Below, piece by piece: positions 383 to 18,151 of a DNA stretch of 32,520 nucleotides. Position numbers and translations under genes: made by a program. The stretch's first letter is position 1, and each line of letters begins with the position of its first letter. The stretch lies in assembly GCA_031260185.1 (NCBI GenBank), contig JAIRKI010000063.1, positions 1 to 32,520 on the forward strand, given 5' to 3'. The stretch comes from Synergistaceae bacterium (GTDB lineage Bacteria; Synergistota; Synergistia; Synergistales; Synergistaceae). The notes beneath the pieces are model-generated. The model was not told the origin of the DNA and did no database searches. It saw only the letters and a list, made by a program, of their open reading frames with translations.

Positions 383-3300
383 TCATTCCTCAAACCCTGA
401 ATCCCGTACTCGCAGTGTCCGGCAATTCTCGGAGATTGTCCGCACGGTTTGCTGAGTGAAACCGTCATTGCTTTCGGCCTCGACTTCCAGTGAGACCTTG
501 ACCTTCGCGCCGTTAACGGAAATCAAGTGTTGAATTATTTCCTCGACGTACTTCTGCGTATCGCGGTTTATTCGCGTTGTATCGAGGTCGGCGGACATAA
601 AGAACCGTTTGTTTTTCGGCGCGGGCGGGTCTTCGTGAGCCCCGGCAGGTTGTGTCCCAGTGCCGTCGCTTGGCGGATAAATGGTGGCTGTCGAGGAACC
701 GTCGTTTCCAATGCTCGCGGGAACGCTTGCCCCACTGCCTGGAGCGCGAGCCGCCGCTTCTGCCTGACGTTTCGCTTCATCATCGGCAATCTGTTTCTGC
801 GCCGTAGCCACTTTAACCAGATAACCGGAACGCTCGATAATGCCGACATACTGGTTGAATTTCAGGTCGATATAACGTGTGCCGTCAAAACCGGATGCGA
901 ACGCGAAATACTCAGTGGAGTTCAGTCCTGTCTGGATTGCCTTTTCGAGGACGATGTCGTTTGCCAAGCGTGGGAGATAGCAGTAGGTGCATAGATACTC
1001 CCACAGTTTTTTGACGGCGATGTTGTCTGTGTCCTTCCACAGCACGTTGTCCAGTTCCATCCGCAGGAGAGCCGGTGCCCACTCTACGATGATCGCCTCG
1101 TTCTGGAGCATCTTCTTGGCGGCTTTGGAGACAATGCCGTCATTGCCGCCGCTGATGCGAACGGTATCCCAGACGATAGTTTTCATGTCCGCGTCTTTGT
1201 CGATGTATGGCACGAGAAGCCAGCAATACGCTTCCTTAATCCGGGCATCCACAGTCTCGTTGCTCCTGCGGAGGTTGTTGTCCGTCTCGCGGTTTTGCGC
1301 GGCGTCAAGGTTCAAGTCTTCGCTGTCGTTCTTGATCGACTTCCACGCAAGGCAGAGCCGAACTTCCTGTTTCAGGCTCGACATCAAATCCTGGTCGGGC
1401 GCGATAAACGCGAGCATATTGCGGTAAATACGCGGCGTATTGCCGCGGTTATTCAGAATATCCGTGACCGCCATCATAGCTGTGTTGCTCTTATTGGTCG
1501 CTTTGTATTCGTCCGCGGGGCGCAAAATGACAATGCGGGCAGCCTGTTCGTCGGGTACGTCCAGCGATGACGACGGGCAGATATGAATGCCGGCGAATGG
1601 AGGCTCCTTGCGAAGCCCGCGAAGCCGCGTCTCGATTTCATACTCCACATCGGAAGCGGAAACCTGCGTGGCTCGGTCTTCCACGGTCTTGCGCAGCGTC
1701 GGGCGAGTATCGTACCAGAAGCGGTCGCCGGACGGATTGGTGTAAAGATAGGCAAGCGAGGATGTCAGTGTGTTAAGCGCGTCGTTGAAGTTGGCGATAT
1801 TCTCGCCGGGCTGAAGCACGCCGAGACGGATTCGGGAAGCCTCGATGCCGCGCACATTCTGGCCGCGAGACGTCGGCGCCGAACCGAGCATTACCGCTCT
1901 CGCTACCCTGCGTGAAGCGAGACAGGAACCATAGCGGATATTCCTCTGGTCGTTCTGGTATGGAACAGAATTTTTGCCGTCCACTTCCCGATCAACCAAT
2001 CCGTTCCACTCCTCACCAAGATTGCGCATCAGTTCGAATTGAACATTGCCGGAATCGAGCGGAATTGAACCCGGCATGATGATCAAACTGGCGTCATTGC
2101 CCATCCAGAGTTCGTGAATCACTGCCGCCATCAGGCGCAGTACGCCGCGTGTGCGCTGAAATCTCCCCAAAGTCGACCAGTCCTCATACAGCCGGTCAAA
2201 AATTTCCGGGTGTATCGGATAGCACGAAATCATGCGATTTTTGTATTCCAATTCTTTGGCTTCCATCGGAAAATCACTCTGGTTCTCATTGTACATCTGG
2301 CTGAACTTTGCGCAAACGGTGTCGCGCCCTTCGGGATTTTTACAGTCGAGAAACAGTCTGCGGCGCACGACCTCAAAACCCTCGTTAGCGGCGACGGGTT
2401 TCCATATCGACTCCATGCGTCCGAAGGTATGCTCTATCGTTTCAAGGGCGGTCTTGCCCGCCTCGCCGCCGATTTCAATTTCGGATTCTGGGATGGACGC
2501 CACGACGAGGCTGTTCTTGCTTGCCCGTGACGCCTCTGTCATTTCCTGAATGAACGAGATGAAGTTGTCGAACGTGCCTGCCGGAAGTCCGATAGTGCCG
2601 TAGATTTTCTTGGCGTACGCGACCAACTCGTCCATAAGGATAAGGCAGGGCGCGGCGGCGTCAAACAGATTTTTTAACGCTTCCGAACCGGGGGAAACGC
2701 CCTTTCTATCCGCTTCTTTCACAAAATCGTAGAGTTTCGGATTGCCCGCCGACTCCGCAAGCTGCGCCGCCATTTCTCCCCACAGCGTGTTGATGGTGAT
2801 GCCGGGCATGTTGTTCGGGCGCTTGCTCCTTGTCGGGTCGAGCGCGGTGCCGACAAGAACGGAGACATTCGCTTTCGGCAAAACCGAAACTCCAGCAAGC
2901 TGCAACACGGGTTTGACATTGGGTATCTTGTCTATGGGCACTCTGCCGCGCATCATGTGGTACAGCGCCAGCATACTGTGCGTTTTGCCGCCGCCGAACG
3001 CGGTCTTTAACTGGATGACAGGCTCTCCGTCCTTGCCGCAGACGCGCCGGAGCGATTGTTCCAAAAGGCCGGTAATACCTTCGGTGACATACGTGCGGGC
3101 AAAGAATTCAACCGGGTCGCGGTATTCGAACGAACCTTCACCACGCGCCACTTGCGCCAAGTCGGCGGCAAACTCGGCATTTTTATAACGTCCCTGCGCC
3201 ACGTCGGGATGAGGCTCTATGACGTCACGCCAGATCGGCAGATTGCTCATCGGAGACTGGAGCAATATATTGTTTCTGTTGGTACGCCCTGCGCGTTGTA

Positions 3301-3838
3301 TGAGAGATGAAATGCCGTCCGAAGCTATTTTCATTGAATTTGCGTCAATATCGATCCCTTTTGCGAAAATCGTCATTGAGCCGTTCTCGGAACCGTAGCG
3401 CGAGGCCCGAAGCAGTCCGCGGATTTTCTCCGCGCTCTCCGGGTCGATTTGCTCGGCGAGCCTCGACATGGTGTCCAGCGCGCGCCATGTGTCGTCGTCG
3501 GAGAAATCCTGTCCTCCGATATGCGCGAGTTTGTTTCGTACGCCCATAAGTTCTTTCGCCCAGGTGCGATGATCAATGGAGAGTTTCTTGCGGAAAACCG
3601 CGTTCCAGTTGATGTCGAACAGTAACAGGCACCTCTGGATGTCGAGCGATTCCGTCAGCGTTTTGTCGTCGCCGGAAGCGGGCAGGCCGTGTTTTTGGTC
3701 GTCATACAGCGCGTCGATGACGGCAGTCTGCCACCAGTTCTCTTTATAATTATTTTTGAGTTCTCGGACGATATATGGAGCGAACGCGCCCAGCAGTATT
3801 CTTAATCCCTGCGAAACCTGTACGTGATTGTCGGCCAT
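383..3838 (-). CDS. Swt1-HEPN + DUF499-type AAA ATPase (anti-phage-associated ATPase)
   Basis: 1151 aa. N-terminal HEPN-like region with RNKLAH (RX4H), Walker A 'FGGGKTHSMLALYHMM', Walker B-like 'CLILMDELVAY'. Confidence 0.8.
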   Translation of the reverse strand: MADNHVQVSQGLRILLGAFAPYIVRELKNNYKENWWQTAVIDALYDDQKHGLPASGDDKTLTESLDIQRCLLLFDINWNAVFRKKLSIDHRTWAKELMGVRNKLAHIGGQDFSDDDTWRALDTMSRLAEQIDPESAEKIRGLLRASRYGSENGSMTIFAKGIDIDANSMKIASDGISSLIQRAGRTNRNNILLQSPMSNLPIWRDVIEPHPDVAQGRYKNAEFAADLAQVARGEGSFEYRDPVEFFARTYVTEGITGLLEQSLRRVCGKDGEPVIQLKTAFGGGKTHSMLALYHMMRGRVPIDKIPNVKPVLQLAGVSVLPKANVSVLVGTALDPTRSKRPNNMPGITINTLWGEMAAQLAESAGNPKLYDFVKEADRKGVSPGSEALKNLFDAAAPCLILMDELVAYAKKIYGTIGLPAGTFDNFISFIQEMTEASRASKNSLVVASIPESEIEIGGEAGKTALETIEHTFGRMESIWKPVAANEGFEVVRRRLFLDCKNPEGRDTVCAKFSQMYNENQSDFPMEAKELEYKNRMISCYPIHPEIFDRLYEDWSTLGRFQRTRGVLRLMAAVIHELWMGNDASLIIMPGSIPLDSGNVQFELMRNLGEEWNGLVDREVDGKNSVPYQNDQRNIRYGSCLASRRVARAVMLGSAPTSRGQNVRGIEASRIRLGVLQPGENIANFNDALNTLTSSLAYLYTNPSGDRFWYDTRPTLRKTVEDRATQVSASDVEYEIETRLRGLRKEPPFAGIHICPSSSLDVPDEQAARIVILRPADEYKATNKSNTAMMAVTDILNNRGNTPRIYRNMLAFIAPDQDLMSSLKQEVRLCLAWKSIKNDSEDLNLDAAQNRETDNNLRRSNETVDARIKEAYCWLLVPYIDKDADMKTIVWDTVRISGGNDGIVSKAAKKMLQNEAIIVEWAPALLRMELDNVLWKDTDNIAVKKLWEYLCTYCYLPRLANDIVLEKAIQTGLNSTEYFAFASGFDGTRYIDLKFNQYVGIIERSGYLVKVATAQKQIADDEAKRQAEAAARAPGSGASVPASIGNDGSSTATIYPPSDGTGTQPAGAHEDPPAPKNKRFFMSADLDTTRINRDTQKYVEEIIQHLISVNGAKVKVSLEVEAESNDGFTQQTVRTISENCRTLRVRDSGFEE

Positions 3839-3849
3839 TTTGATTCCCC

Positions 3850-4421
3850 CTAATCGTTGGAGTTAGTGCGCGATATTTCCACGCACTTGATCCCATATTG
3901 CCGCAATTGCTCCACATCTACCAAATCAAACGATAATTCTTTAAATTTTTTGAAACGCGGCTTATTTAGTCCTGTCGGGACGTGGCCGCTGATTTTTTCT
4001 TTCAGCCTGCCTCGTTCGCGAGGAGTTAACGTATTCAAATGTATAACGAGCACATAAACGACATCTTTCGTAAATTCGTCTCCCAAAGAATATTTTCTCA
4101 GCAAGCTGTCTTTAATTTTCTCGCCCATTTCGAGATTAAAACAGCATGGGCTTCTTCCTGGTCTGGATTGAGAAGAGTGCGCTTCTTTTTTCCCGTTCCG
4201 GCCTCAACGAGTAATTTATAATCATGTTCACGTTGTTCTTTTGACGCGTTTGGATGTTGAAAATCCTTGACCTCGATAAAATAAAGACAATTTGCGGATT
4301 CAACAACAAAGTCTACGGCTTTCATGCCTCTCGGGTTAGTCTGCGTATCGTCAAACCGCTCCGCAATGCCGCAATCGGAAAAATCGAACCGCAGATTACC
4401 CTCCTCAAAAGTATTATTCAT
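3850..4421 (-). pseudogene. PD-(D/E)XK-like nuclease partner 1, split over two frames (4098..4421 and 3850..4128)
   Basis: First ORF carries VDFVVESANCLYFIEVK. Second ORF (LEMGEKIKDSLLRKYSLGDEFTKDVVYVLVIHL...) looks like the C-terminal half of the same protein in the -1 frame. The ATG at 4421 overlaps the upstream ATPase stop. Confidence 0.6.
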
Positions 4422-5415
4422 CGTCCTGTATCCCCATTGCGTTGGCAACTACCGCATTAAACAGCTTTTCTCCAGCCTTTTCAAGTACGTTTTCAGAGAG
4501 ATTTGTATATTCGGAAGACGATACACATTCGATGCTGCCGTTTTCCGTTTTCGATAGATTGAAGAACATGACGCTATTAACGTCTGATTTTTTAATGTCA
4601 AAGTACCGCGCAAGGTTATAGTTATGCGTTGCGAGAAAAATCTGCACACCATTGCTTTGAAGTTCGAGAAGAATTTCAACAAGAACAGGCACAAGTTCTG
4701 GGTTAAGGCTGTTTTCTGGTTCGTCCCAAAAAAGGATTGAGCCTTTTTTGATTTGTTCATTACGAATCAAGGCTGCAAGCAATCCGAGCTTTCTAAACCC
4801 AGACGCTTCTGCTGAAAACTCAATTTTTTTTCCGTTTCTTACTATATAGAACACCTGACCGTCACATTCTACATCGCCGCCGATAACGTTAAATATCTTT
4901 CTTACGAGCGGTTGGGGTGTACGTTCCCCAGCGACACGAGATTTTTTGATAATATCGATCTCACAGCGGTTAAAGGAAAGTAGTTTACTCTCCCATGTTT
5001 CGGGCAACGAATGCGAGTTCGACAGCATGTCCTTTTCAGGGATATAAACCCTTGAAATTTCCTGTTTACCGTCAGTCCAGGAATCTTCATAATCCGACAA
5101 TGATGCGTAATGCATTGATCTTCTATTCAAGCCCATTCCCGTTAAGTTACCTTGTATAGTCACGCCATCTCGCTGCAATGTGATTTCTGTATTGCGAATC
5201 TCCTCATCACACTTGCCACAATCTATTTCATTAATATTATTGTAGAAATAGCTGCACCAATTGTGTTTTGAGCCGAAGCAATAAATCACCTTCATCAGCG
5301 TCGTCTTGCCCGTCGCGTTTGCGCCAATCAGCACGTTCACACCGGGGCAGAAGTCCACGGAAAACTCTCCCTTGAACACCAAAAAGTCCTTTATTTCCAC
5401 ACGATTGATTGCCAT
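4414..5415 (-). CDS. AAA (AAA_15/AAA_21-like) ATPase, pair 1
   Basis: Walker A GANATGKTTL, Walker B ILFWDEPENSLNPEL, H-loop ATHNYNLARYF. RBS GGAGG upstream of ATG 5415. Confidence 0.8.
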   Translation of the reverse strand: MAINRVEIKDFLVFKGEFSVDFCPGVNVLIGANATGKTTLMKVIYCFGSKHNWCSYFYNNINEIDCGKCDEEIRNTEITLQRDGVTIQGNLTGMGLNRRSMHYASLSDYEDSWTDGKQEISRVYIPEKDMLSNSHSLPETWESKLLSFNRCEIDIIKKSRVAGERTPQPLVRKIFNVIGGDVECDGQVFYIVRNGKKIEFSAEASGFRKLGLLAALIRNEQIKKGSILFWDEPENSLNPELVPVLVEILLELQSNGVQIFLATHNYNLARYFDIKKSDVNSVMFFNLSKTENGSIECVSSSEYTNLSENVLEKAGEKLFNAVVANAMGIQDDE

Positions 5416-5436
5416 AAATGTCTGCCTCCATCTCCC

Positions 5437-5937
5437 TCAATTTGTGATCAGTTTTCGCGCAGCCGCCGTTTTCTCATTTATGACGAATATTTCCGGCTTC
5501 CAAATATTCGCCATGCACCGTGATTGACGGACTCGATTTCGTAGAGCTTTTTTAATCGGGTCACACCAGGCAGTCTTAAAACCGTTAATCACCAAAATGA
5601 ACACAAGTGAAACTTTATCCGCCGGCTTGAAATCAGCGGGAAAACCGTTATCCGCAACACCAACATCAATCGATGAATAGAGATTCAGCGAATGTACGAA
5701 CTTGTCGCACATTTCCTCGACCTCTTCGCGAAACCGCGTCGATTTCTTATCGTCTGTATCATTCAGTTTTGGAAAAGATGATTTTGCCTCCACAAACATC
5801 AGTTTGCAACCCTTCGCCCGAACGAACTCAACCGACTTTACGCTGCCTCTAAGCCGTGTGTAGAACGGGGATTTTTCGATATGAAAGACATTATCGGCAA
5901 TGAAATCCATACCGCTTTCGGTTATTGTCTCAATCAT
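5437..5937 (-). CDS. PD-(D/E)XK-like nuclease partner 2 of the AAA ATPase
   Basis: VEFVRAKGCKLMFVEAK resembles the D/E...ExK core. ATG 5937 overlaps the ATPase stop (ATGATTGA). The annotated ORF extends to 5967. Confidence 0.55.
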   Translation of the reverse strand: MIETITESGMDFIADNVFHIEKSPFYTRLRGSVKSVEFVRAKGCKLMFVEAKSSFPKLNDTDDKKSTRFREEVEEMCDKFVHSLNLYSSIDVGVADNGFPADFKPADKVSLVFILVINGFKTAWCDPIKKALRNRVRQSRCMANIWKPEIFVINEKTAAARKLITN

Positions 5938-6946
5938 CGCCAAATACTCCGTCCAGTTCTTTTTCATACAGTTTCACAGGTTCTTCCGTAAGTTTGTTCG
6001 GTTCGAGCAAGTCAAAACGATCGTTGGAATTCACCTTGATATACTCCCCGTCTTTATAAAGCGAGTGGAACATCACACTGTTCTCTTTTTGCTTGCAAAC
6101 TGGAAAGTAGCTCGCGAATATTTCACTGTGTGTAGCGACGAAAATCTGCACGCCATTCATCTGAAGATCCAGCAATATGTCCACCAAATATGACATCAGT
6201 TCAGGATTGATATTACATTCCGGCTCGTCCCAAAAAAGAATACTGTCTTTTTCAAGGAGTCCATTGCGAATAAGTTTCTCCAACACTCCAAATTTCCTGA
6301 ACCCTTCTGCCTCAAACGAGAACTCGATTTTTTTTCCGTTGTCTTTTTGGATAAAGAAAGTATCGTCTTCGAATACAACTTTCCCGTGAATGATGTGATT
6401 TATTTTTTCGAGTATTTCCGTATAAACGGGAGGCAGTTCGCGCGCCTCGGGAAGTTCGGCGTTCACTACGATATCGATTTGCGTTGCGTCAAATGGGATT
6501 TTGTATTTCTCGTTCAACGCCAAAAAGCCCTTTGAATGCGACAGCATTTCTGTAGTTGGAATAAAAATGGATTTCATGTCTAAATTCCATAAATTAACGT
6601 TCTCGTTCTTTATCGGGAGTTTGTCGTCTTTATATTCAAACGTAATAGTAGTAGCGTTGTTATTGTAAAAAATCTTTATGAAAAAAGGGGCATTATCCTT
6701 CGAATCAAGAGCCAAATTCAATCCAGAATTATTTTTAGAAAAATAATCTAAGATGCTTTTTTTCCACTCGCTCGTCTGTTGTTTCCACATACGTGAAAAT
6801 TCACATGCGGCGTATAAAACTTTTAGTAAAGTTGTTTTTCCTGTGCCATTGCCTCCGATAATAACGTTCACACCAGAACAGAAGTCCACAGCAAACTCTC
6901 CCTTAAATACCAAAAAGTCCTTTATTTCCACACGATTGATAGCCAT
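5930..6946 (-). CDS. AAA (AAA_15/AAA_21-like) ATPase, pair 2
   Basis: Starts MAINRVEIKDFLVFKGEFAVDF like pair 1. GGNGTGKTTL, ILFWDEPECNINPEL, ATHSEIFASYF. RBS GGAGG at 6956-6960. Confidence 0.8.
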   Translation of the reverse strand: MAINRVEIKDFLVFKGEFAVDFCSGVNVIIGGNGTGKTTLLKVLYAACEFSRMWKQQTSEWKKSILDYFSKNNSGLNLALDSKDNAPFFIKIFYNNNATTITFEYKDDKLPIKNENVNLWNLDMKSIFIPTTEMLSHSKGFLALNEKYKIPFDATQIDIVVNAELPEARELPPVYTEILEKINHIIHGKVVFEDDTFFIQKDNGKKIEFSFEAEGFRKFGVLEKLIRNGLLEKDSILFWDEPECNINPELMSYLVDILLDLQMNGVQIFVATHSEIFASYFPVCKQKENSVMFHSLYKDGEYIKVNSNDRFDLLEPNKLTEEPVKLYEKELDGVFGDD

Positions 6947-6966
6947 AACTGTCTGCCTCCAGTAAA

Positions 6967-9747
6967 TTATTCTTTGAACAGCATCGTTTGTTTGCCGCTT
7001 GCCTCGCGTGCGGCGAGTTCCGCCGCTTTCGACTGCACGTCCGGCCACGCGATGACGAGCGAGTTGTAGGCGTACGCCTCAGCCGCCCAGCCCTTGCGCT
7101 CCGCGATGGTGAACAGGCGGTACGCCAGAGCCTTGGCTTGTTCCGGCTTGGATGTAAAGATATCCGCCACAATTCGCGCCACGCCGGATACACCGTCTTT
7201 TTCGAGTGCACGGACGAGTTGTTGAGCGAGAAGCCATATTATTTCCGCGTCAATCTTTTCTGGAACCTCTTCTCGGGTGAGCAGACGGACGACGCCTTTT
7301 TGCGCGTACAGGACGCCGCGAGCCGACAATTTCTCCACCGATGTATTTTTTGCCCGCGCCAGAACATCAGCTTCGCCGAACTTCACGTCGCTGAAGGCGT
7401 ACTGCGTATATAGATCAACGCAGAAACGGCTGTCGCGGTCAAGTTCGCCGTCCTGCTCGGTAAAATAAAGGTCGAGTTCTTGATTGATGATTTGCAGCGC
7501 CGACCGCACGCTCATCGGTGTTCCGTCCGCTTCCAGCACTTTGGAAAAACGCGAGTATACGCCCATGCCGGGGCCGATTGCTGACTGCGCCAAATCCACC
7601 GGTGCGATGTTGCTCGCTTGCAATTTTTGCAAGGCGGGCTTGAGTTCACGTTTCAGCGCGTTGATAAAGTCGCGGCGGGTAGCTATCGGCGCGTCGGCGG
7701 GACGCTTGCGGCAGACGAGGACGATGGAGGAGGCGAGGGCGTTGGTGTTCTGGCCCACAGAACGATTCGCCATTTCGGTTCTCATCGGCCACGTACCGGT
7801 TATTGAAAATCCAGATTTGATGACAGCAGATAACATGGTCTCCCATCCAGTGGAAGCAGTTTGTACGTCGTCGCCATCATCCTGGGATTCGCTTTGTTTG
7901 AAAGCATAATAAATCGTGACTGGCATGTCCTCGCAGGCATAAGTGAAAACTTGATGAAACACTTTCAACATGCCACTCTCGAAAAAATCTCGTGCTTTTT
8001 CTGTGCTACCATCGAAGCGATACGGCGTCGCGACGAGTTCTTCTGTCTTTGGGACAAGCATCGTACCGAACAAATTCGGGTAAGTATCTTTAAGTGATTG
8101 ACGAAGCCAGATGTAAAAAAAGTCGGAGAGATCGGCATAACCGATGTTATCGTAGTAGGGGGGGTCTGTAGACACCATAATATTGTGAAATTCTTTACCG
8201 CTCTGAGCATCGGATTGTATGACGTTTCCGTTGATCATAGCTGGTAGAATGTTCACGCATTTTGCAACCCAATCAAGCATATTATCAAAGCATCCGGCCG
8301 AATTACTAAACGGGTTAGCTTCAGCATAATCCCAAACCATCGGAATTGCCTGCCGTCCGAAAGTATTCCGAATCAGTTCTTTTGAATTGTGCCATGAACA
8401 TATCGTCGAATGATAATCGGATAACCTGTCCACTACGAACGCTAAATACACTCCCACCGCCTGCCCGTAGGCAACCGCGCCATTACCGTCATCGGCCAAC
8501 GGCGTCGGGTCGTTGTTCATCCCCGTAGCGACGGCGTCCTCTTCGGCCATCTTCTGCATCTCGCGCACGAGGCCGCTGAACGTGGTGAGGGCCGTGAGCT
8601 GGCGAGATGTGAAGAGGTCGGAGAAATTTTTCAGCCCATAGTTGGGAGTTTTGAAATCACGAGGATTGTGAGGCAAAATAGCGTCTGGGTAGTTTTCCGG
8701 TTTCTTGACGTCAGCGGCTTTAATATGAGCCTCATCCGGCGATAAATAAATGCGCCCGTTGTTTCCTTCAGCGACGATAGCAATCAATCGGCTGCCCATG
8801 CGTCCCTGCCGCCCTTCTTCGCGGATATACTGGAAAGCGACGGGAGTCCCGCAGCAAATACATCTTGTCCCTTTACGATTCACAGTTCCCTCCGGTGCGT
8901 TACGTCCCTGCTTCACAATATAAGAAATTCGCCCATTTTCGATGACAGGTTCCACATAGGCCTCTTTGTCTTTTTTCTTGGAAAGCTCAAAGGAATGCGC
9001 CAGCGGCATCTCACACCCGCACGCCGGGTTCGGGCACTTCACTGTCCGCGCCCAAATCCACGCGATGACTGTATGTTCCTTCCCGTGTTCGTCCTTCACT
9101 TTCGGGTACAGATGCCCGATCTTCTCGAAGGCTTTCTTCTTCATCCACTGGCCATAATAACGCACATCCTCCGCAAGCCCGCTCGCCCCTGTCCATGTTG
9201 CGACAAGGCGGTTTGAATCCGGGTTCACAGGAGGCTGTCCCGCAAATTTCGGCGGTATCTCTATCATCGCTTTGTTTATCATCACGGCGACGGGGTTTAA
9301 GTCGCTGGCGTGGGCTTCAAGTCCGAGCCGCTGCGCTTCGAGCGGAATCGAGCCGCCACCGGCGAAGGGATCAAGCAGAGCGGGCGGGTTGCCGTCAGTG
9401 GATTTCATGATCTCGGCTTTTGCCTCGTCGAGGACTTCTTTGTTGTTGGAGTTCTCCCACTTCACAAGCCGTTCGAGTATGCCGAACAGACGCTTCCGTT
9501 CCTTGGTCTGCGCTTCTTCGGTCGGGAATTCGTCGGGGTGCGACGATGGGTCGTCCACCAAAGATGACCAGATGACGGCTCGCGCCGCCGCGAGCGGACG
9601 CCGCGCCCACCACAGGTGCAACGTGGACGGGTGCCCGTGGCGTATCGACTTTTCACGGGCGGACTCGGCGTTGATTGCTTTCAAAGGAAGGGCGACTTCA
9701 ATGAGTTTTTTCTTCTGTCCCATGGCCGTATCATGTATATTGTTCAT
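6967..9747 (-). CDS. DUF1156-type DNA methylase
   Basis: LPLKAINAESAREKSIRHGHPSTLHLWWARRPLAAARAVI, LDPFAGGGSIPLEAQRLGLEAHASDLNPVAV, STDPPYYDNIGYADLSDFFYIWLR. Confidence 0.88.
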   Translation of the reverse strand: MNNIHDTAMGQKKKLIEVALPLKAINAESAREKSIRHGHPSTLHLWWARRPLAAARAVIWSSLVDDPSSHPDEFPTEEAQTKERKRLFGILERLVKWENSNNKEVLDEAKAEIMKSTDGNPPALLDPFAGGGSIPLEAQRLGLEAHASDLNPVAVMINKAMIEIPPKFAGQPPVNPDSNRLVATWTGASGLAEDVRYYGQWMKKKAFEKIGHLYPKVKDEHGKEHTVIAWIWARTVKCPNPACGCEMPLAHSFELSKKKDKEAYVEPVIENGRISYIVKQGRNAPEGTVNRKGTRCICCGTPVAFQYIREEGRQGRMGSRLIAIVAEGNNGRIYLSPDEAHIKAADVKKPENYPDAILPHNPRDFKTPNYGLKNFSDLFTSRQLTALTTFSGLVREMQKMAEEDAVATGMNNDPTPLADDGNGAVAYGQAVGVYLAFVVDRLSDYHSTICSWHNSKELIRNTFGRQAIPMVWDYAEANPFSNSAGCFDNMLDWVAKCVNILPAMINGNVIQSDAQSGKEFHNIMVSTDPPYYDNIGYADLSDFFYIWLRQSLKDTYPNLFGTMLVPKTEELVATPYRFDGSTEKARDFFESGMLKVFHQVFTYACEDMPVTIYYAFKQSESQDDGDDVQTASTGWETMLSAVIKSGFSITGTWPMRTEMANRSVGQNTNALASSIVLVCRKRPADAPIATRRDFINALKRELKPALQKLQASNIAPVDLAQSAIGPGMGVYSRFSKVLEADGTPMSVRSALQIINQELDLYFTEQDGELDRDSRFCVDLYTQYAFSDVKFGEADVLARAKNTSVEKLSARGVLYAQKGVVRLLTREEVPEKIDAEIIWLLAQQLVRALEKDGVSGVARIVADIFTSKPEQAKALAYRLFTIAERKGWAAEAYAYNSLVIAWPDVQSKAAELAAREASGKQTMLFKE

Positions 9748-10156
9748 CAGCTTCCCTGATTGCTTCCAGAATTTCATTATAATTAGCCTCGCGCTCCGCG
9801 TTGCCGTATAGCTCTACGCCAATATCGCGCTCGATAGCGTCAATCTCCGCCGCCAAGTTAAGTACGTCAATCGTTGCGGAATGCCAAATATCTGTAAAAT
9901 CTACAGATTCATAGTCGTGAGTGATGACATTCCTGGTTTTGCGGATTGCCGCCCAAGGGACGTTTTTGTACCGCGCTTTCACGCCGTCTGACAAAGCGCG
10001 GCAAAGCTCGCCGATATTGGCCGGCGTCTGCGTCACGGCTCGCTTCTTTTCTTCGTTTTGCATGAAACCATCATATTCAACGCCGTCAATGAACTTGTTG
10101 ACAAGCCGCGCTTCTTCCCTCATCTTGGCCAATATGCGTCTATCCCTCAGTTCCAT
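9731..10156 (-). CDS. hepT: HepT-like HEPN toxin (DUF86)
   Basis: 141 aa with IRKTRNVITHDYESVD: RNVITHDY matches RX4HXY. Lies directly downstream of an MNT gene. Confidence 0.8.
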   Translation of the reverse strand: MELRDRRILAKMREEARLVNKFIDGVEYDGFMQNEEKKRAVTQTPANIGELCRALSDGVKARYKNVPWAAIRKTRNVITHDYESVDFTDIWHSATIDVLNLAAEIDAIERDIGVELYGNAEREANYNEILEAIREADEQYT

Positions 10157-10431
10157 AGCATTTCACCACTTTTTCTATGCGCAGATGCGTTTCTTTCGGC
10201 AAGGGCAGCTTGAGTACGTCCACTTTCATATGCAAGGTTTCCTCTAAATCCGCCGTCAGACCCGCCGTAGTGAACAAAGAAATTGAAGTCGCATCGAAGT
10301 CACAGCAAATCCAAATCGCTTTTATCATTTTGAGTTCCTCTGGCGTAGGAACCAAAATAATAGGCGTTTTGGACTTTGTATTTCGTGGCCGCTTCTTTTA
10401 CGGCGTTGCATATATCCTCGTGCGTAAGCAT
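10140..10431 (-). pseudogene. mntA: MNT-type nucleotidyltransferase antitoxin, frameshifted
   Basis: ATG 10431 reads MLTHEDICNAVKEAATKYKVQNAYYFGSYARGTQNDKSDLDLL then TGA (10302-10300). The homologous C-terminal half (DFDATSISLFTTAGLTADLEETLHMKVDVLKLP) continues in another frame to 10140. AAGGAGA RBS upstream. Confidence 0.75.
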
Positions 10432-10435
10432 AACG

Positions 10436-10582
10436 CTATGTCTCCTTTATGTCCCGTCTTAACGTCACTTCCGCGCCGCCAGTCATCTCCGCGATGCCGT
10501 AATTCACGCTCGTCGCCGCGAGGTCGGGCCGCTCGTGGAACGGGCGCTTCAAGTATACTGTTTTCGCGTCCGCGCGGTTCAT
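10436..10582 (-). CDS. 48-aa ORF homologous to the C-terminal tail of the helicase
   Basis: MNRADAKTVYLKRPFHERPDLAATSVNYGIAEMTGGAEVTLRRDIKET* versus helicase tail KDTKTVYLKRPFRERPDFAVTSVNYNIEDLAHDAEVIFEESR*. Confidence 0.7.
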   Translation of the reverse strand: MNRADAKTVYLKRPFHERPDLAATSVNYGIAEMTGGAEVTLRRDIKET

Positions 10583-10584
10583 TA

Positions 10585-11841
10585 TTATTTTTCTTCCCGT
10601 TCGGGATTTGCCGCGTAGATTGTCAACATCAGTTCCGCATCGTCGATCAAACGATATTCCGGCCGGAGCCCCGATAATTTTTTGCTTTCAACCAAGATAA
10701 TCGGAACGCCCTCGCCGCGTTTGTCCATTATGAATTCACGATTACCCGTATAACTTTCGATATTCAACGGGCATCGCGCAAGCAAGCTCGTGAGCAGTTC
10801 ATTGCGGGCAGATTGGCGCAAGGGCAGGCTGTCGAGCGTCATGGTGTTTGTGATTGTTCCCGGCGAGAAAATTTCCAAACGGTCGGCAAACAGATGTACA
10901 CGGATTTTAGAGCTTTGGATGGAATAATCGCGGTGCGCCGCGGCATTCACCAATGCCTCAAAAACAGCGTTCATGGAAAATTGGGGAATTTCTCTGCGAG
11001 CGGGGTTTTTTACCGCGTAAACCCTCATATTCTTTTTCACGAACCGATACGCGGCGGCGATTTGCGCGTCCAGGGGACCGACAATATCCCTGGCGTCCAA
11101 TTGATAGGCCGCGTTGCGCTCAGTTCCGCGATACGCGACAGCCTGGATAAAGGCGTTCGCCAAATATTCACGCGGTTTTTCAGAAGCCATCAGGATTCCG
11201 CTTACAGTGGGAAAAACTTCGCCATCCTCATTTTGTGAGAGTAGTTTCATTTTACATAAAAATTCTTCGTCGCCGGATGGAGAAAGCGGCGTCCTGAACT
11301 TTTCCCAAAGGTTCCTGTCGAGCGTGTTTTTCGATACGGAAGGCACGACCTGCTCGTCAAAACGGATCAAACGCGATTGGCTGCGTTGTTGAAAAAGCCT
11401 CGCCAGCACGTCAGGTTCCATTTCCCGCTTGGAACTGCCTGTGCGATTGAAATAACCATGCGGGCTCTTATGAACGAAAATGCTTCGTGGTATGTCGACG
11501 CGCACGATACACCGTTCTTCGCCGCCGCCATTTATAAGCGGAATTTTACGGATGCGGCAAAAGAGCGGCGGATTGATCGAGTCGTTGCAAATCTCGCGCA
11601 CCCATGTTTCAACCGCCTCCAATTTATCGACGGGAATACCGGCAATCGTCTTGGATTTGTCGTCGACGCCGAACACAAAGACGCCGGCGGCGGAATTCGC
11701 CATCGCGGCAAATTCGTCGGCGATGTCGTCGCGGCGCGGTTCCGCCACTCGATTTCCTTTGTATCTCAAGTCTTTTAACTCAAGGGAAGAATCTTCCCCC
11801 AAACGAATTTGCCGCAGAAGTTCGTCGGTTGTGTCAAACAT
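10585..11841 (-). CDS. AlbA_2 (Schlafen-type) ATP-binding / transcriptional regulator-like protein
   Basis: MFDTTDELLRQIRLGEDSSLELKDLRYKG..., GVFVFGVDDKSKTIAGIPVD, FEALVNAAAHRDYSIQSSKIRVHLFADRLEIFSPG. Confidence 0.75.
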   Translation of the reverse strand: MFDTTDELLRQIRLGEDSSLELKDLRYKGNRVAEPRRDDIADEFAAMANSAAGVFVFGVDDKSKTIAGIPVDKLEAVETWVREICNDSINPPLFCRIRKIPLINGGGEERCIVRVDIPRSIFVHKSPHGYFNRTGSSKREMEPDVLARLFQQRSQSRLIRFDEQVVPSVSKNTLDRNLWEKFRTPLSPSGDEEFLCKMKLLSQNEDGEVFPTVSGILMASEKPREYLANAFIQAVAYRGTERNAAYQLDARDIVGPLDAQIAAAYRFVKKNMRVYAVKNPARREIPQFSMNAVFEALVNAAAHRDYSIQSSKIRVHLFADRLEIFSPGTITNTMTLDSLPLRQSARNELLTSLLARCPLNIESYTGNREFIMDKRGEGVPIILVESKKLSGLRPEYRLIDDAELMLTIYAANPEREEK

Positions 11842-11843
11842 GC

Positions 11844-14621
11844 TCAGGCCTCCAGGGTTATGCGCTTGTAACGATTGTCGAACGCCTCGCGTCCGCCTTC
11901 CATAATTGTACAAATGGATTCGCGGATGGGGATTTCCTCCAGACCGCCCTGACAGTCAAGTTGAATTTGGCCGCCGGCGAATTTCAGAATATGCACGAGT
12001 TCCGAGTCGCCATTGACGACTATATTCGGGTTATGCGTCGCGATAATCAACTGGCGGCGGTTTTTATTTTCGTGGATCTGTTTCACTATTAAATCGTAAA
12101 TCAAAGCGTTGTCCAAATCATCTTCCGGCTGGTCGATGACGAGCGGCTCTTTGCCATAGCTCAACAAAAACGCCAGAATGGCTGCCGCTTTTTGACCGGC
12201 GGAACCTTTTTCCAGATCGTTGAAACGAGAATTGCTCGCTGCCGGGGAATATTTGACGCGCAGGAGGTCTTCGGGAAACCAAATTTCAAAACGATCCAAC
12301 AATTGAGGTTTTTCATTCAAAAGCCTGTTGAGCCTTGCATCGAATCGGGTATCAGCGGCATTGGAGATGCCATTGGCGATATTCAGCGTTTGGGTTTTTA
12401 CCTTCGCAAGCAAATCCGGAATATCCCGTACGTTTGTCTCGGGCCGCTCCCATTGAATGAGAGAGAAAAGAATACCGCGTTCGTTTTCCGGTTCGTACAC
12501 AGATCTGACGAATCTGCCTTCTTCGAGTCCGAGCAAATCGCGGTAGTCACTTTCGAGCGTGCTGATATCGCCAAACGGGACAAATTCCATTCGCACATAC
12601 GAATTACCGCCAATGACGGAATTGACGAATCTGGCGCGCCTATCCAACAGTTCCTCGCGCATGGTTTTAAATTGTGCGCCGAGAGCGGCGATTTGCGCTT
12701 GAGTGGTTTCCAGGTCTTTCCTGACGGAAGTCAATTCACGCAATTGCTGTTGCAACTGATTGCGCAGGCTTACCCATTCGCTGTAAGTGGCGAGATTCAG
12801 TTGGCTTTGTTTTTCAGCGTATTCTTCGACAAGAGCTTTGTATGCCGCGACGCTCCGCCGATATGCCATCGCGAATTTGCTGTCGTTGTTCGCGTCTTCC
12901 CATCGCTGACCAATGGACATTACATCCAGGGATAATTTTCGCAACTGTTCGGCGACGGTTCGCAGTTCACGGGTGGATTGTTCGTAAATCGATTGTATTT
13001 CGCCGCGAGCATCGTCCTCGTCGTCAAAAATATGCGAGGGAAAATCGGGAAGCGACAAGGCGGGAACGACATCGGAAATCTGCCGCGAAATCGCGTTGAA
13101 ATCTTCTTTGCGCGGCAGACCATTCCATTGCTGTATCCGCTTTTGATAATTTTTCAAAATTTCGCCGTGCCCTTTTTCCTCGTATTGTTTCAGGTCACGT
13201 TCGACATCGGCGAGCTTGACGCGGAACCGCGGTTCGTCGGCAAGGCGGCGCGACAAATCGCGTTCACGCTCTTTCAACTGGAAAAACCGGCTTGCGGTAC
13301 TGTCCCAACGAGTTTGCCATTCGGCCCGATCGACATCCGGAGCGAGATCTATGATGTCAAGCAACCCGCGTGGGTTGGAGGCGAGTTCTTCAATCTGTTT
13401 CTGGCTGTAAATGCTGAGAGGAAAACGTTCCTGAATGTTTCCCGCTTCAACCGGAACCCAAGTGTCATGCTGTTTTTCATCGAGCGCGGGACCGTTCCCA
13501 TCTTTACGCCAGCGCAATCGATACGTCGCGCCGCGTCGTTGAAGCTCCAACAGAATTTCTGTGTTATCCAGCATCACGCCTTTGTCGCCGGACAGCCGGA
13601 CAAAGTGTTCAATTTTCTCCCCGGTGCGCGAACTATCCGGCAATGATTGCTCTCGCCGCGCCGCGAGGCGGATGGATTCAACCAGCGTAGATTTGCCCGC
13701 GCCGCGCCCGCCAATCAGAGAGTTGAAATGCGGGTGCAAAACGGTCACGAATGGCTGACCGGGAATGCGCCCGCACACGCTCATGTTTTCGATGGCGAGT
13801 CGGGTCAAATAAATATCGGGATCGTGATTCGGGTTTTCAGCTTGGTTTTTCACACAAAATACGCGGTCGGACATGGCAAGACGCAAACCCGTAATTGAAG
13901 GCCCGCTCATTTTGATCCAACTTGTATGTTTACCGATGTCTTTTGGCGTATGAGCGTCTGAACCCGCGATTTTGGCGAGGCGATCTATCTCGGGTTTCAA
14001 GTCGTTCCCGGCGGTATCGAACTTGTCGATATCGCGGAATTCTGCCGCAAACACCGTATCAAGGCTTCTTTTAAGTTCGGGAGTCAATGAATTTTTCCCA
14101 TCGAGCAATCCCTTTGCGCCGTCAATGTGAGCGGGAATAGCTATACCGCCGGAGCCTTTGATCACTTGAACGACATCGAGAAAACTTTTGCTCGTTGCCG
14201 TGTTGTTCCCGTCGCCGAAGCCGTTCTCGATACCGCAGGCTCCGAGGACGGCTGTTATTACTTGGCTGTCGCAATCGACATCAAAAACCGCAAGCAGATG
14301 TACGCGACTCGCGCTGTCGCCCACGGTAATTTCGACGCCGGGGAAAATATGCAACTCTCTATACCATTCAGGTTGTGGGTTTTGCGTACTGAGTTCAGCG
14401 TTTCTCGCCTTCAATCGGTCAATCCATTCACCGGAATTATGATCTGTCACGACTACGCAATCGATCCCGGCCGACATCGCCGCCTTCAGCCAATCATCTT
14501 CGGTCGCGCCCATTTCTTTATAATCGCTCGACGCGGGCGTGTGCGTGTGAAAATCACACTTCCACCACCTGCTTCCCGGAACGCCGAATATTTGATGAGA
14601 TGTTTTTGTGTTTAACGGCAT
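11844..14621 (-). CDS. TrlF-type PHP-domain + SMC-like AAA ATPase
   Basis: KCDFHTHTPASSDYKE, VVVTDHNSGEW (PHP); GGRGAGKSTLVES (Walker A); DQPEDDLDNALIYDLIVKQIHENKNRRQLIIATHNPNIVVNGDSE. Confidence 0.82.
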   Translation of the reverse strand: MPLNTKTSHQIFGVPGSRWWKCDFHTHTPASSDYKEMGATEDDWLKAAMSAGIDCVVVTDHNSGEWIDRLKARNAELSTQNPQPEWYRELHIFPGVEITVGDSASRVHLLAVFDVDCDSQVITAVLGACGIENGFGDGNNTATSKSFLDVVQVIKGSGGIAIPAHIDGAKGLLDGKNSLTPELKRSLDTVFAAEFRDIDKFDTAGNDLKPEIDRLAKIAGSDAHTPKDIGKHTSWIKMSGPSITGLRLAMSDRVFCVKNQAENPNHDPDIYLTRLAIENMSVCGRIPGQPFVTVLHPHFNSLIGGRGAGKSTLVESIRLAARREQSLPDSSRTGEKIEHFVRLSGDKGVMLDNTEILLELQRRGATYRLRWRKDGNGPALDEKQHDTWVPVEAGNIQERFPLSIYSQKQIEELASNPRGLLDIIDLAPDVDRAEWQTRWDSTASRFFQLKERERDLSRRLADEPRFRVKLADVERDLKQYEEKGHGEILKNYQKRIQQWNGLPRKEDFNAISRQISDVVPALSLPDFPSHIFDDEDDARGEIQSIYEQSTRELRTVAEQLRKLSLDVMSIGQRWEDANNDSKFAMAYRRSVAAYKALVEEYAEKQSQLNLATYSEWVSLRNQLQQQLRELTSVRKDLETTQAQIAALGAQFKTMREELLDRRARFVNSVIGGNSYVRMEFVPFGDISTLESDYRDLLGLEEGRFVRSVYEPENERGILFSLIQWERPETNVRDIPDLLAKVKTQTLNIANGISNAADTRFDARLNRLLNEKPQLLDRFEIWFPEDLLRVKYSPAASNSRFNDLEKGSAGQKAAAILAFLLSYGKEPLVIDQPEDDLDNALIYDLIVKQIHENKNRRQLIIATHNPNIVVNGDSELVHILKFAGGQIQLDCQGGLEEIPIRESICTIMEGGREAFDNRYKRITLEA

Positions 14622-14623
14622 CC

Positions 14624-17600
14624 TTATCGCGACTCCTCGAATATGACTTCCGCGTCATGCGCCAGATCTTCGATATTATAGTTTACGCTCGTCACCGCGA
14701 AGTCAGGGCGTTCGCGGAACGGACGCTTCAAGTATACGGTCTTCGTGTCCTTGCCGTCTACCTCTACAATCGCCAGAATATATTCGTCCGGTTTGTTCAG
14801 CGCCGTGAGTATCTCGTTCTTGCTGACCGTGACGGTGGTCGCGCCTTTTATCCTGCCTTTTACCTCGATGAAGCGGAGGGGAGCCAGTTCGCCACGGATA
14901 TTTTCCGGTATCAGCGATTCCACGTCGTAGCCGCATTTCGCCGCGCTCACGTCGCGGGGGACGAATCCGAGCGACGTTTCGATTTCAATTACGGTTTTCA
15001 TCGCGGCAAGTTCAACCTCGCGCCGAGCCATTGTGTCTGCGGTAAATGTGTCAACCTTGCCAGTCAGCTTGTTCAGCAGTCCTCGCGGGATGATGAGCGC
15101 GCCGCCGACTATCACTGGCGGCATCGCGGAGATGAGTTTTTCTGTCTCCAGTTCGGCAAGCCGTTTCCGCATACGGGCTTCCAGTTCCTCGGCGCGGCGG
15201 GCCGCCATCCGGGAGTTCTGTTTAGCGTTGGTCTTGCCGGCCGCCTCTTTCTGCTTCAAATCGGCGGAGCGAAAGTCCCAATATTGTATCTCGGAGGTCA
15301 TCCGCTCTTTGACGGCTTTCATTGTCTTGTCGATGAGTTTCGTCTTGCGCTCGCGTACCTCGGCGACATGGGCGGGGATAACCCGCGAAATGGCATAGCC
15401 GACCGCGATTTCTTCCACGTTCGATTGCAGCCACCGCTGACTTCCGATAAACGAGCGGATGGCGGCTTGCTCGTCCTCTTTGGCGGCTCGGTAATCGAGG
15501 TACGGAGCGTATCCGGCGTTTGCCGCCGCGCCATCCTCCTTTATCTCCACAAAATGGATGTGCTTGGAAATAACGCGCTTGCTCCCATTCGGCAGGATAA
15601 CGCCATCTTGAACGGAATCTTCCACATAGAACAGAAGTCTCGGTTCCGTGCCGTAATCGGCGTCGTCGATGAAAACCGCGCCGCGTTTCAGCGCGTCCAT
15701 GTTTCGCTCGCGCACAAGGTCGATGGTCGCTTCAAGCAATGGATGTCCCGGCGCAATCAGCGCGGCGGGAACTTGCCCTTGTACGCTGCGGTAGGGTTTG
15801 TCGAAGCAAATCCGCTCATAGCGCCCGAGAACAGGCTCGCCGAAGCCTGTCCGCATGTCACGGTTACGGACGGCAAACGGCACAGAGGTGATTTCATAAC
15901 GCCCCTTTTCGCGCGCGCGGATTTTGCTCCCGACGCCGGTGAACGCCTCTATAAAAAAGGATTCGACGAAGTGCGGCTGAAGTTTATGCGCTTCCATACG
16001 CTCCATATCCTCACGGATTGTCGCAACTTGACGGATGTCCATTGCGTTCTCGGTCAGCGCGTGTTCGTCGAGCAGCCGTTGGAGCGCTTCTCGGTCGAGC
16101 GAATGGTCGACCACTTGATAGAGCCTCGCCCTGACATCCGGGTCGTTGCCGTAACGTATGGCTTCGAGTATCAGGCCTTTCAGCGACTTGTTATCGAATG
16201 TCACTTTGCCGAGAACGTCAAAAACTTTCCCGTGAAGGGCTTCGCGCTCCTGTTCCAATTTCTCGAAAAGTCGCTGGAACACCATACCCTCGCGGGTTTC
16301 CTTTGAAACAAGATTCCACAAATGGCATACTTCCGTCTGTCCAATACGGTGGATGCGCCCGAAACGCTGTTCAAGCCGGTTCGGGTTCCACGGCAGGTCG
16401 TAGTTCACCATCAAATGCGCCCGCTGGAGGTTGATGCCTTCTCCCGCCGCGTCGGTGGCGATGAGGATTCGCACTTCCCTGTCCCGCTTGAACAGTTCCT
16501 CGATCTTTCGCCGCTCGCCGCGGAGCAAGCCGCCGTGTATGGTCACAACAACTTCTTCGCTGCCGAGCAAGGAGCGGATTTTGTCCGTAAGATAACGGAG
16601 CGTGTCGCGGTGTTCCGTGAAGACAATCAGTTTCTCGCGTTGCCGCAGTCCGGGCTCCGGCCCGGCCGCTCCGAACATATTGTCATTGTCTTGGAGCAGT
16701 TTGGAGAGTTCGTCCCACTTGCGGTCAACGCCGCTTTGACGGACATCGTTCGCCATGCGCTCCAGCTTTTTCAGCGTGGCGATTTCCGCTTCCAGCTCAG
16801 CGATGGTCTGCGCCGCCGACGCCTGATCGGCTACTTTTTCCTCCGCGTCTTCCAGTTCCGAAGACGGCAGGTCGTCATCGTCGCAGTCCTCATAAGAGGC
16901 AGTGAAGATATATTCAGAAGCCCGTTTTCCGAGCCGTTCCTCGGCAAGTCGGTTTTCAAGCCGCTCGCGGCGGCGTCTCAATGATTGATAGATGGCTTCG
17001 GGAGAGGATGCAAGTCTTCTCTGCAATATCGTCAGAGCAAAGCCGATCGTGGTCTTCCGCTCATTGTTCAGTTGGTCGGCGCGGTTGAACTCTTTCTGTA
17101 CATATTCCGTCACCGCTCCGTACAGTTTCGCCTCGATGGGTGAAAGGTCATAGTTGACCGAGTAGGCGATGCGCTCCGGGAACAACGGCGTCCCGTCGAA
17201 TTTCAGCAGTTCCTCTTTCACAAGTCGGCGCATCACATCGGACATATCCACAGCTTGACCGCCGCTTCTCGCCACGCCCTCGAAACGGTCCCGGTCGATA
17301 AGCGACATGAAAAGCCGGAAATCTTCCTCTTTGCCATTGTGCGGCGTGGCGGTCAAGAGCAAAAAGTGTCTTGTAATGGACGAGAGAAGCCGCCCGAGCT
17401 GGAACCGTTTTGTGTATTTGATTTCGCCGCCCCAAACGGTGGCGGACATCTTGTGCGCCTCGTCACAGACGATCAAGTCCCAGTCGGTGACTTTCAGTTT
17501 TTCCCGAAGATCCTCGTTGCGGGAGAGTTTGTCCAGACGGACGATGCAGAGATTCGTTTCCGTAAACACGTTGCCCGTAACGGCGGATTCGATGCGGTCA

Positions 17601-18151
17601 TTCGTGAGAATCTCAAACCGCAAATCGAACTTGCGATAGAGTTCATCCTGCCACTGTTCGGCCAAGTTTCCGGGGGAGACTATCATGCAGCGTTTCAGGT
17701 CGCCGCGCACGAGCAGTTCTTTTAAGAACAGCCCGGTCATGATCGTTTTGCCGGCGCCGGGGTCGTCCGCAAGGATGTAGCGGAGCGGCAGACGCGGGAG
17801 CATTTCCCGATAAACCGCCGAAATCTGGTGCGGCAACGGCTCGATCGACGACGTATGCACGGCGAGGTACGGATCGAATATATGGGCGAGGTTGATGCGA
17901 TAGGCTTCCGACGCAAGGCGCAACAGATCGGCGTCCGCGTCGAAACTCCAGGGCAGGCTCCCGTCCGCGACGGTAAGTCGCTCTTCGTCTTCCCTATACA
18001 CAAGTTGGCTGGCTAGCTGCCCTTTGGCGTCCTTGAACGTAATCTCCATGACGGCGTTGCCGTACCATTTTGCGGCGACAACGCTGACGGGGGCGTTCCC
18101 GGCTATACCGACGACATTTGCACCAACCGTTATATCCTCAAGTCGAGCCAT
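14624..18151 (-). CDS. SNF2/SF2 helicase with C-terminal DUF3883-like domain
   Basis: DDPGAGKTIMTGLFLKELL, LIVCDEAHKMSA, LLLTATPHNG, RLEQRFGRIHRIGQ; C-terminal RFIEVKGRIKGATTVTVSKNEILTALN. Confidence 0.88.
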   Translation of the reverse strand: MARLEDITVGANVVGIAGNAPVSVVAAKWYGNAVMEITFKDAKGQLASQLVYREDEERLTVADGSLPWSFDADADLLRLASEAYRINLAHIFDPYLAVHTSSIEPLPHQISAVYREMLPRLPLRYILADDPGAGKTIMTGLFLKELLVRGDLKRCMIVSPGNLAEQWQDELYRKFDLRFEILTNDRIESAVTGNVFTETNLCIVRLDKLSRNEDLREKLKVTDWDLIVCDEAHKMSATVWGGEIKYTKRFQLGRLLSSITRHFLLLTATPHNGKEEDFRLFMSLIDRDRFEGVARSGGQAVDMSDVMRRLVKEELLKFDGTPLFPERIAYSVNYDLSPIEAKLYGAVTEYVQKEFNRADQLNNERKTTIGFALTILQRRLASSPEAIYQSLRRRRERLENRLAEERLGKRASEYIFTASYEDCDDDDLPSSELEDAEEKVADQASAAQTIAELEAEIATLKKLERMANDVRQSGVDRKWDELSKLLQDNDNMFGAAGPEPGLRQREKLIVFTEHRDTLRYLTDKIRSLLGSEEVVVTIHGGLLRGERRKIEELFKRDREVRILIATDAAGEGINLQRAHLMVNYDLPWNPNRLEQRFGRIHRIGQTEVCHLWNLVSKETREGMVFQRLFEKLEQEREALHGKVFDVLGKVTFDNKSLKGLILEAIRYGNDPDVRARLYQVVDHSLDREALQRLLDEHALTENAMDIRQVATIREDMERMEAHKLQPHFVESFFIEAFTGVGSKIRAREKGRYEITSVPFAVRNRDMRTGFGEPVLGRYERICFDKPYRSVQGQVPAALIAPGHPLLEATIDLVRERNMDALKRGAVFIDDADYGTEPRLLFYVEDSVQDGVILPNGSKRVISKHIHFVEIKEDGAAANAGYAPYLDYRAAKEDEQAAIRSFIGSQRWLQSNVEEIAVGYAISRVIPAHVAEVRERKTKLIDKTMKAVKERMTSEIQYWDFRSADLKQKEAAGKTNAKQNSRMAARRAEELEARMRKRLAELETEKLISAMPPVIVGGALIIPRGLLNKLTGKVDTFTADTMARREVELAAMKTVIEIETSLGFVPRDVSAAKCGYDVESLIPENIRGELAPLRFIEVKGRIKGATTVTVSKNEILTALNKPDEYILAIVEVDGKDTKTVYLKRPFRERPDFAVTSVNYNIEDLAHDAEVIFEESR

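Follow-up and report, generated by a model that had tools for sequence, protein, structure and literature searches.

The window, a 32,520-nucleotide stretch of Synergistaceae DNA, contains a complete Hma system, a DUF499-centred and BREX-related locus that is home to two tandem ATPase–partner pairs lying between hmaB and hmaC. Judged by profile matches, both pairs belong to HEC-02 (Hma-embedded candidate 02), a candidate defence module that is already in PADLOC-DB and reportedly stems from a 2024 preprint by Payne et al. The upstream (alpha) pair is intact as read; with its ATPase intact and its nuclease frame-broken, the downstream (beta) pair is probably inactive as read. Our preferred account, which we hold with some confidence though well short of certainty, is of an Hma system with two HEC-02 modules, each a PARIS-like guard, in which the beta pair is probably inactive and neighbouring pairs recombine.

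HmaA, HmaB and HmaC are all present in the one locus, where the minus-strand gene order is HmaA, Ppl, Schlafen/AlbA_2-HATPase, HepT-like RNase, HmaB, A2, B2, A1, B1 (in two frames) and HmaC (Table 1). At least five accessory defence-type modules are found within this Hma locus (383–18151), namely Ppl, Schlafen/AlbA_2, HepT and the two HEC-02 pairs, and HmaC additionally bears a HEPN domain. The MNT-like gene adjoining HepT (GSYARGTQNDKSDLDLL motif; 10140–10420, minus strand) is also broken across two frames, which may reflect a sequence error or a decayed pair, since HepT toxins would not be expected to lack an intact MNT. The same genome carries a second, distant HmaC/DUF499-like gene (G000:C2:7657–9519, E 1.6e-51).

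Table 1. Features of the Hma locus and its two HEC-02 pairs (coordinates are those of the window).
Feature	Coordinates	Strand	Evidence
A2, HEC-02A sensor ATPase (AAA_15/AAA_21, OLD/ABC type), alpha pair	5930..6946	-	PADLOC PDLC04213 E 5.5e-104; Pfam AAA_21 1.6e-15
A1, HEC-02A sensor ATPase, beta pair	4414..5415	-	PADLOC PDLC04213 E 3e-86; Pfam AAA_21 1.3e-23
B2, HEC-02B alpha-subfamily PD-(D/E)XK-like nuclease, start possibly 5937	5437..5967	-	PADLOC PDLC04221 2.1e-38
B1 first part, HEC-02B beta subfamily, ATG start, VDF...FIEVK	4098..4421	-	PADLOC PDLC04220 7e-15; PDLC04219 positions 5-94
B1 second part, other frame, KIKDS helix and C-terminus	3850..4128	-	PADLOC PDLC04219 7e-13, positions 81-156
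5' homology tract of A2, about -16 to +83	6864..6962	-	91% identical over 98 nt to A1 tract
5' homology tract of A1	5333..5430	-	same 98-nt, 91% comparison
HmaA, SNF2 helicase with NOV_C domain	14624..18151	-	PADLOC HmaA 1667 bits; Pfam
HmaB, DUF1156 adenine methyltransferase	6967..9777	-	PADLOC HmaB 1213 bits
HmaC, HEPN_Swt1 + DUF499 ATPase	383..3838	-	PADLOC HmaC 1068 bits; Pfam HEPN_Swt1, DUF499
Ppl (PHP + SMC-like ATPase), embedded defence gene	11844..14621	-	PADLOC Ppl 4e-149
Schlafen/AlbA_2 + HATPase_c_4 protein, embedded accessory gene	10585..11913	-	Pfam
HepT-like RNase, embedded accessory gene	9731..10156	-	Pfam HepT-like 4e-16

The first-pass annotation had described two tandem ATPases of AAA15/21 type with a common start, each preceding a small gene that has a nuclease-like core, and for the ATPases this description was confirmed throughout. 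A1 and A2 share the N-terminus MAINRVEIKDFLVFKGEF[A/S]VDFC[S/P]GVNV and carry a Walker A motif (GxNxTGKTT), a Walker B motif (LFWDEPE) and an H-loop region (ATH); their Pfam AAA_21/AAA_15 scores lie well over threshold. The proteins are 333 and 338 residues long and 41–44% identical overall, and the HEC-02A profile spans their full length (residues 1–328 at 3e-86, and 1–333 at 5.5e-104). This profile also matches AriA and PtuA/retron effector ATPases as well as Rad50 and OLD-type proteins. No TOPRIM domain fused to A1 or A2 was matched by PADLOC or Pfam. Two PADLOC-DB labels seem to be swapped, in that PDLC04145 (170 positions, labelled HEC-02A) matches the partners and PDLC04146 (344 positions, labelled HEC-02B) matches the ATPases.

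The small gene with its V[D/E]F...F[I/V]E[V/A]K core is likewise found after each ATPase, but in partner 1 a frameshift breaks the gene in two. Both B1 halves match one HEC-02B profile (PDLC04219, 171 positions) at positions 5–94 and 81–156, and the reading frame is lost near 4113–4136, between the ExK motif and the conserved K..DS helix, so that the catalytic core is divided. The overlap of B2 with A2 is 38 nt for a B2 start at 5967 and 8 nt for one at Met11 (5937); the homologue alignment and the disordered first nine residues of the AlphaFold2 (AF2) model favour the latter. The partners cannot be recognised as duplicates of each other, since B1 was not recovered when phmmer was run with B2 as query. 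The two match different HEC-02B models in PADLOC and carry different signatures (ESGMxF...VEF...FVEAKSS for the alpha type of B2, EGxLxxF...VDF...FIEVKD for the beta type of B1); two large HEC-02B subfamilies and some smaller ones are visible.

Residues E60, K62 and K89 (B2 numbering) are invariant in 21/21 aligned HEC-02B partners, and an acidic residue occupies the place of the VEF glutamate in all 21, as anticipated when the partner was proposed to be a small ExK nuclease rather than a TOPRIM protein. The AF2 model of B2 (pLDDT 85.4, pTM 0.83) places a hairpin of strands 48–52 and 55–62 around the acidic residue and ExK, with K89 on a long helix (73–101), and a beta partner was modelled at pLDDT 90.1. 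The element order of both confident models fits the PD-(D/E)XK core, while Foldseek returned no match at E ≤ 0.001 with either. Among the best 50 matches of the beta model (best E 0.037) about four fifths are, judged by their names, PD-(D/E)XK or XPF-type proteins, including Hjc, Mus81-Eme1, BstEII, Bse634I, N.BspD6I, EcoO109I and R2; the weak matches of the B2 model are mixed, with Shedu, arenavirus endonucleases, Mus81-Eme1 and HamAB among them. Subthreshold Pfam matches of several partners are to the REase-fold families DpnII, Tox-REase-9, SduA_C and ERCC4. A PDB sequence search with B2 gave no match, and one with the partner alignment gave only 2eo0 (E 1.2). Neither B2, the B1 halves nor nine homologues had a DUF4435/TOPRIM or AriB match in Pfam or PADLOC, which upholds the view that the partner is not TOPRIM. 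Because no Foldseek match reaches E 0.001, the case for the fold of HEC-02B is built from motif, topology and the kinds of protein among the weak matches, from which a PD-(D/E)XK nuclease is likely but not proven.

The module had been put forward as an undescribed one, and this does not hold: the pair is known under another name, given its matches to the HEC-02A/B profiles and the published pairing of OLD-ABC ATPases with PD-(D/E)XK nucleases among the backup effectors of BREX and Hma loci in the accessible text of PMC12839542. The same text has OLD-ABC ATPases partnered by HNH, PD-(D/E)XK or PIN nucleases in place of TOPRIM and treats Hma as type 1 BREX-related (BR) systems. A further report spells out HEC as Hma-embedded candidate, crediting a guilt-by-embedding preprint, and describes anti-phage activity of several HECs, with HEC-06 but not HEC-02 mentioned by name (PMC12988326); we found no experiments on HEC-02 itself in the literature searched. 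Both window genes match the HEC-02 profiles full-length (B1 only in two frames), in the same order and within Hma. The window differs in having tandem pairs of different effector subfamilies, one effector being split, and the family differs in occurring also in BREX and alone. With the backup effectors of BREX and BR systems the window shares domain pairing and location type, BR type 1 being Hma, but in its accessible text that paper tallies taxa, and neither tandem pairs nor mosaic ATPases are discussed (PMC12839542).

The layout had also been likened to PARIS, and here the comparison proved apt: both pair a small nuclease with a sensor ATPase of AAA_15/AAA_21 type, and AriA profiles match HEC-02A with E from 1e-17 to 2e-25. 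AriB, however, is a TOPRIM/DUF4435 nuclease, whereas HEC-02B lacks such a match and has an ExK core; since HEC-02B is not TOPRIM, the pair is not PARIS, and we rejected membership of that family. Gabija and OLD were likewise set aside, the 333- and 338-residue ATPases bearing no TOPRIM. Septu and retron I-A PtuA–PtuB resemble HEC-02 in the ATPase head (PDB profile matches 5e-11 to 2e-8, and PADLOC PtuA matches), but PtuB is an HNH nuclease and HEC-02B has no HNH match.

We gathered HEC-02 pairs from relatives, viral contigs and other genomes and placed their context by reference-protein search, judging it on flanks of a few kb. The neighbourhood search that had been suggested found the ATPase–partner pair outside this operon, in more than 25 loci that include BREX and free-standing ones; this recurrence, together with profile E-values as low as 5e-104, makes the pairing no coincidence. 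Counts were made with HEC-02B families, because HEC-02A matches in every genome through shared AAA parts; the HEC-02B families occur in 16 and 11 of the 188 genomes of the phylum sample, and a scan of genome contigs with the ATPase alignment gave at least four loci. Within Hma, HEC-02 lies in the window and in L103, L104 and L105, the pairs of the latter three between hmaB and hmaC, and L042 retains an ATPase beside HmaB. Five loci (L027, L050, L052, L054, L055) carry HEC-02 between BrxC and PglX, and in two more (L028, L048) it adjoins PglXI in a type-3-like BREX; PADLOC confirmed BrxC, PglX and PglZ in L050 and PglXI, BrxHI, PglZ and HEC-01 in L048. Other pairs, among them those of L024, L029, L031, L033–L035, L040, L041, L045, L049, L053, L097, L101 and L106, have no Hma or BREX genes in the examined flanks.

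Some of these loci merit separate mention. In L048 (3387–9532) the methyltransferase of one BREX operon is flanked by HEC-01A/B and HEC-02A/B. Two viral contigs with HEC-02 look like real phages: L053 encodes a Zot-like protein (phrog_197, 1e-89), and both an anti-repressor and an SSB are encoded on L049. In L053 (840–9551) the Zot-like and other phage genes accompany the HEC-02 pair, giving the impression that the module travels on a filamentous-phage-like element. The 'viral' contigs that contain BREX may instead derive from cells. A Methylomonas koyamae plasmid carries an HEC-02 relative, the match touching a brxC annotation, and a plasmid tblastn search with B2 gave one weak match.

The supposition that the window pairs were duplicated and diverged holds only in part. 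Near their 5' ends A1 and A2 share the 98-nt tract of Table 1, outside which the identity of the genes drops to about 35–67%. Each window ATPase has its closer relatives among same-subtype ATPases elsewhere and not in the ATPase next to it (A2 scores 307–314 bits against the L103/L105 ATPases and 213 bits against A1), and the effectors belong to two subfamilies; the tandem is therefore old or separately acquired rather than a fresh copy, and we rejected simple in-place duplication on the same grounds. In G004 (L042), of the same genus, the DNA upstream of the single ATPase resembles that upstream of A2 and the ATPase itself resembles A1, a pattern compatible with two histories: the alpha pair may have been inserted between hmaB and the beta pair, or the 5' end may have been converted later.

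Damage recurs among the relatives, where beta-type pairs are affected in G113, G114, G004 and G021. G113 (L105) and G114 (L103), of one genus, have an alpha pair followed by the same 281-nt remnant in which an ATPase start is joined to the end of a beta partner (phmmer 1.5e-6 against B1 and 3.7e-12 against the G021 partner); the alpha partner of G113 has an internal deletion. G021 has a stop in its beta-type ATPase and a partner without the ExK region. The C-terminal end of the G004 HEC-02A (L042 7150–8385) passes into MATE-transporter-like sequence with no partner, a configuration attributable to rearrangement or misassembly; HmaC of G004 is on another contig. A further tandem HEC-02 occurs in L024 (G073; 9265–12005), where decayed ATPase pieces precede an intact beta pair.

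The ATPase of G166 (L104) is a mosaic, and its C-terminal end agrees in type with its effector. In columns 181–300 it is identical to the G004 beta-type ATPase at 104/118 positions, and in columns 331–390 it agrees with the alpha-type ATPases of G114/G113 at 43–44/59 and with G004 at 13/49; its partner is of alpha type. Across 30 pairs, effector distance tracked the stretch of the ATPase beyond the H-loop (r 0.74) somewhat more closely than the stretch ahead of Walker B (0.67), with partial Mantel values of 0.49 for the C-terminal end versus 0.29 and a resampled 5–95% range of the difference of 0.00–0.39. These data are only suggestive of a tie between ATPase C-terminus and effector type, and docking of the effector by this end is a lead. 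We tentatively, and with more doubt than belief, extend this to tandem HEC-02 loci as recombining arrays, in which tracts shared at the ATPase start and near Walker B would allow the sensor middle to be swapped between neighbours, the C-terminal end remaining paired with its adjacent effector, so that new sensor–effector combinations arise within a single locus.

In the guard model, by analogy with PARIS, the HEC-02A ATPase would keep the HEC-02B nuclease inactive until it recognised a phage factor. The most plausible such factor would be an anti-restriction or DNA-mimic protein able to disable the surrounding Hma or BREX methylation machinery. Recognition would free or activate the nuclease, which would then cut nucleic acid and halt phage growth, possibly at the cell's cost; recombination between neighbouring pairs would leave the ATPase middle exchangeable and the C-terminal end with its effector type. 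PARIS AriA/AriB respond to Ocr, an inhibitor of RM and BREX (PMC9122126), and the embedding in Hma and BREX agrees with this model. Guarding these systems cannot be the only role of HEC-02, because most loci outside Hma and BREX have no methylation system in the examined flanks. That distribution bears also on the reading of HEC-02 as a direct restriction module, whose ATPase would scan or load on foreign DNA like OLD, Gabija or Rad50-type nucleases, with the nuclease cutting and Hma methylation as the self mark. PD-(D/E)XK enzymes are mostly DNases, the ATPase profile matches Rad50 and OLD-type proteins and HEC-02 is embedded in methylating systems, all of which count for direct restriction, but many pairs lack a methyltransferase in the examined flanks, so that the self mark cannot be general, and an ATPase of about 340 residues is too short for a long coiled coil; we regard this reading as unlikely. 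Less probable still is a toxin–antitoxin pair whose ATPase neutralises the nuclease and whose loss would poison the cell. The two-gene operon with its short overlap, the small nuclease beside a larger partner and the mention of AbiEii toxin in the Pfam name of AAA_21 would suit such a pair, yet the window effector is broken though its ATPase remains, and all that survives of the beta pair in L103/L105 is a remnant, both as expected of a dispensable module, and deleting either PARIS gene was non-toxic (PMC9122126).

The inactivity of the beta pair within our preferred guard account depends on the B1 split being real. If the split came instead from faulty base-calling or assembly, or from programmed frameshifting, both pairs would be functional; the assembly is indeed fragmented (1.43 Mb, 140 contigs, 72.9% complete) and the MNT-like gene beside HepT provides a second frame break. 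However, HmaA, HmaB, HmaC and Ppl (about 12.5 kb) are free of frame breaks, no classical slippery heptamer lies at the site, and the damage to beta-type pairs in the four other genomes also argues against this reading, so that we consider it improbable that both pairs are functional.

In conclusion, what was supposed to be a new two-gene system is the named but little-studied HEC-02, a portable module that turns up in Hma loci, in BREX of two kinds and on its own, whose beta-type pairs are often broken and whose ATPase C-terminus is a likely place of effector docking. If HEC-02 does guard methylation-based defences as PARIS does, the same guard logic would be served by an unrelated nuclease.
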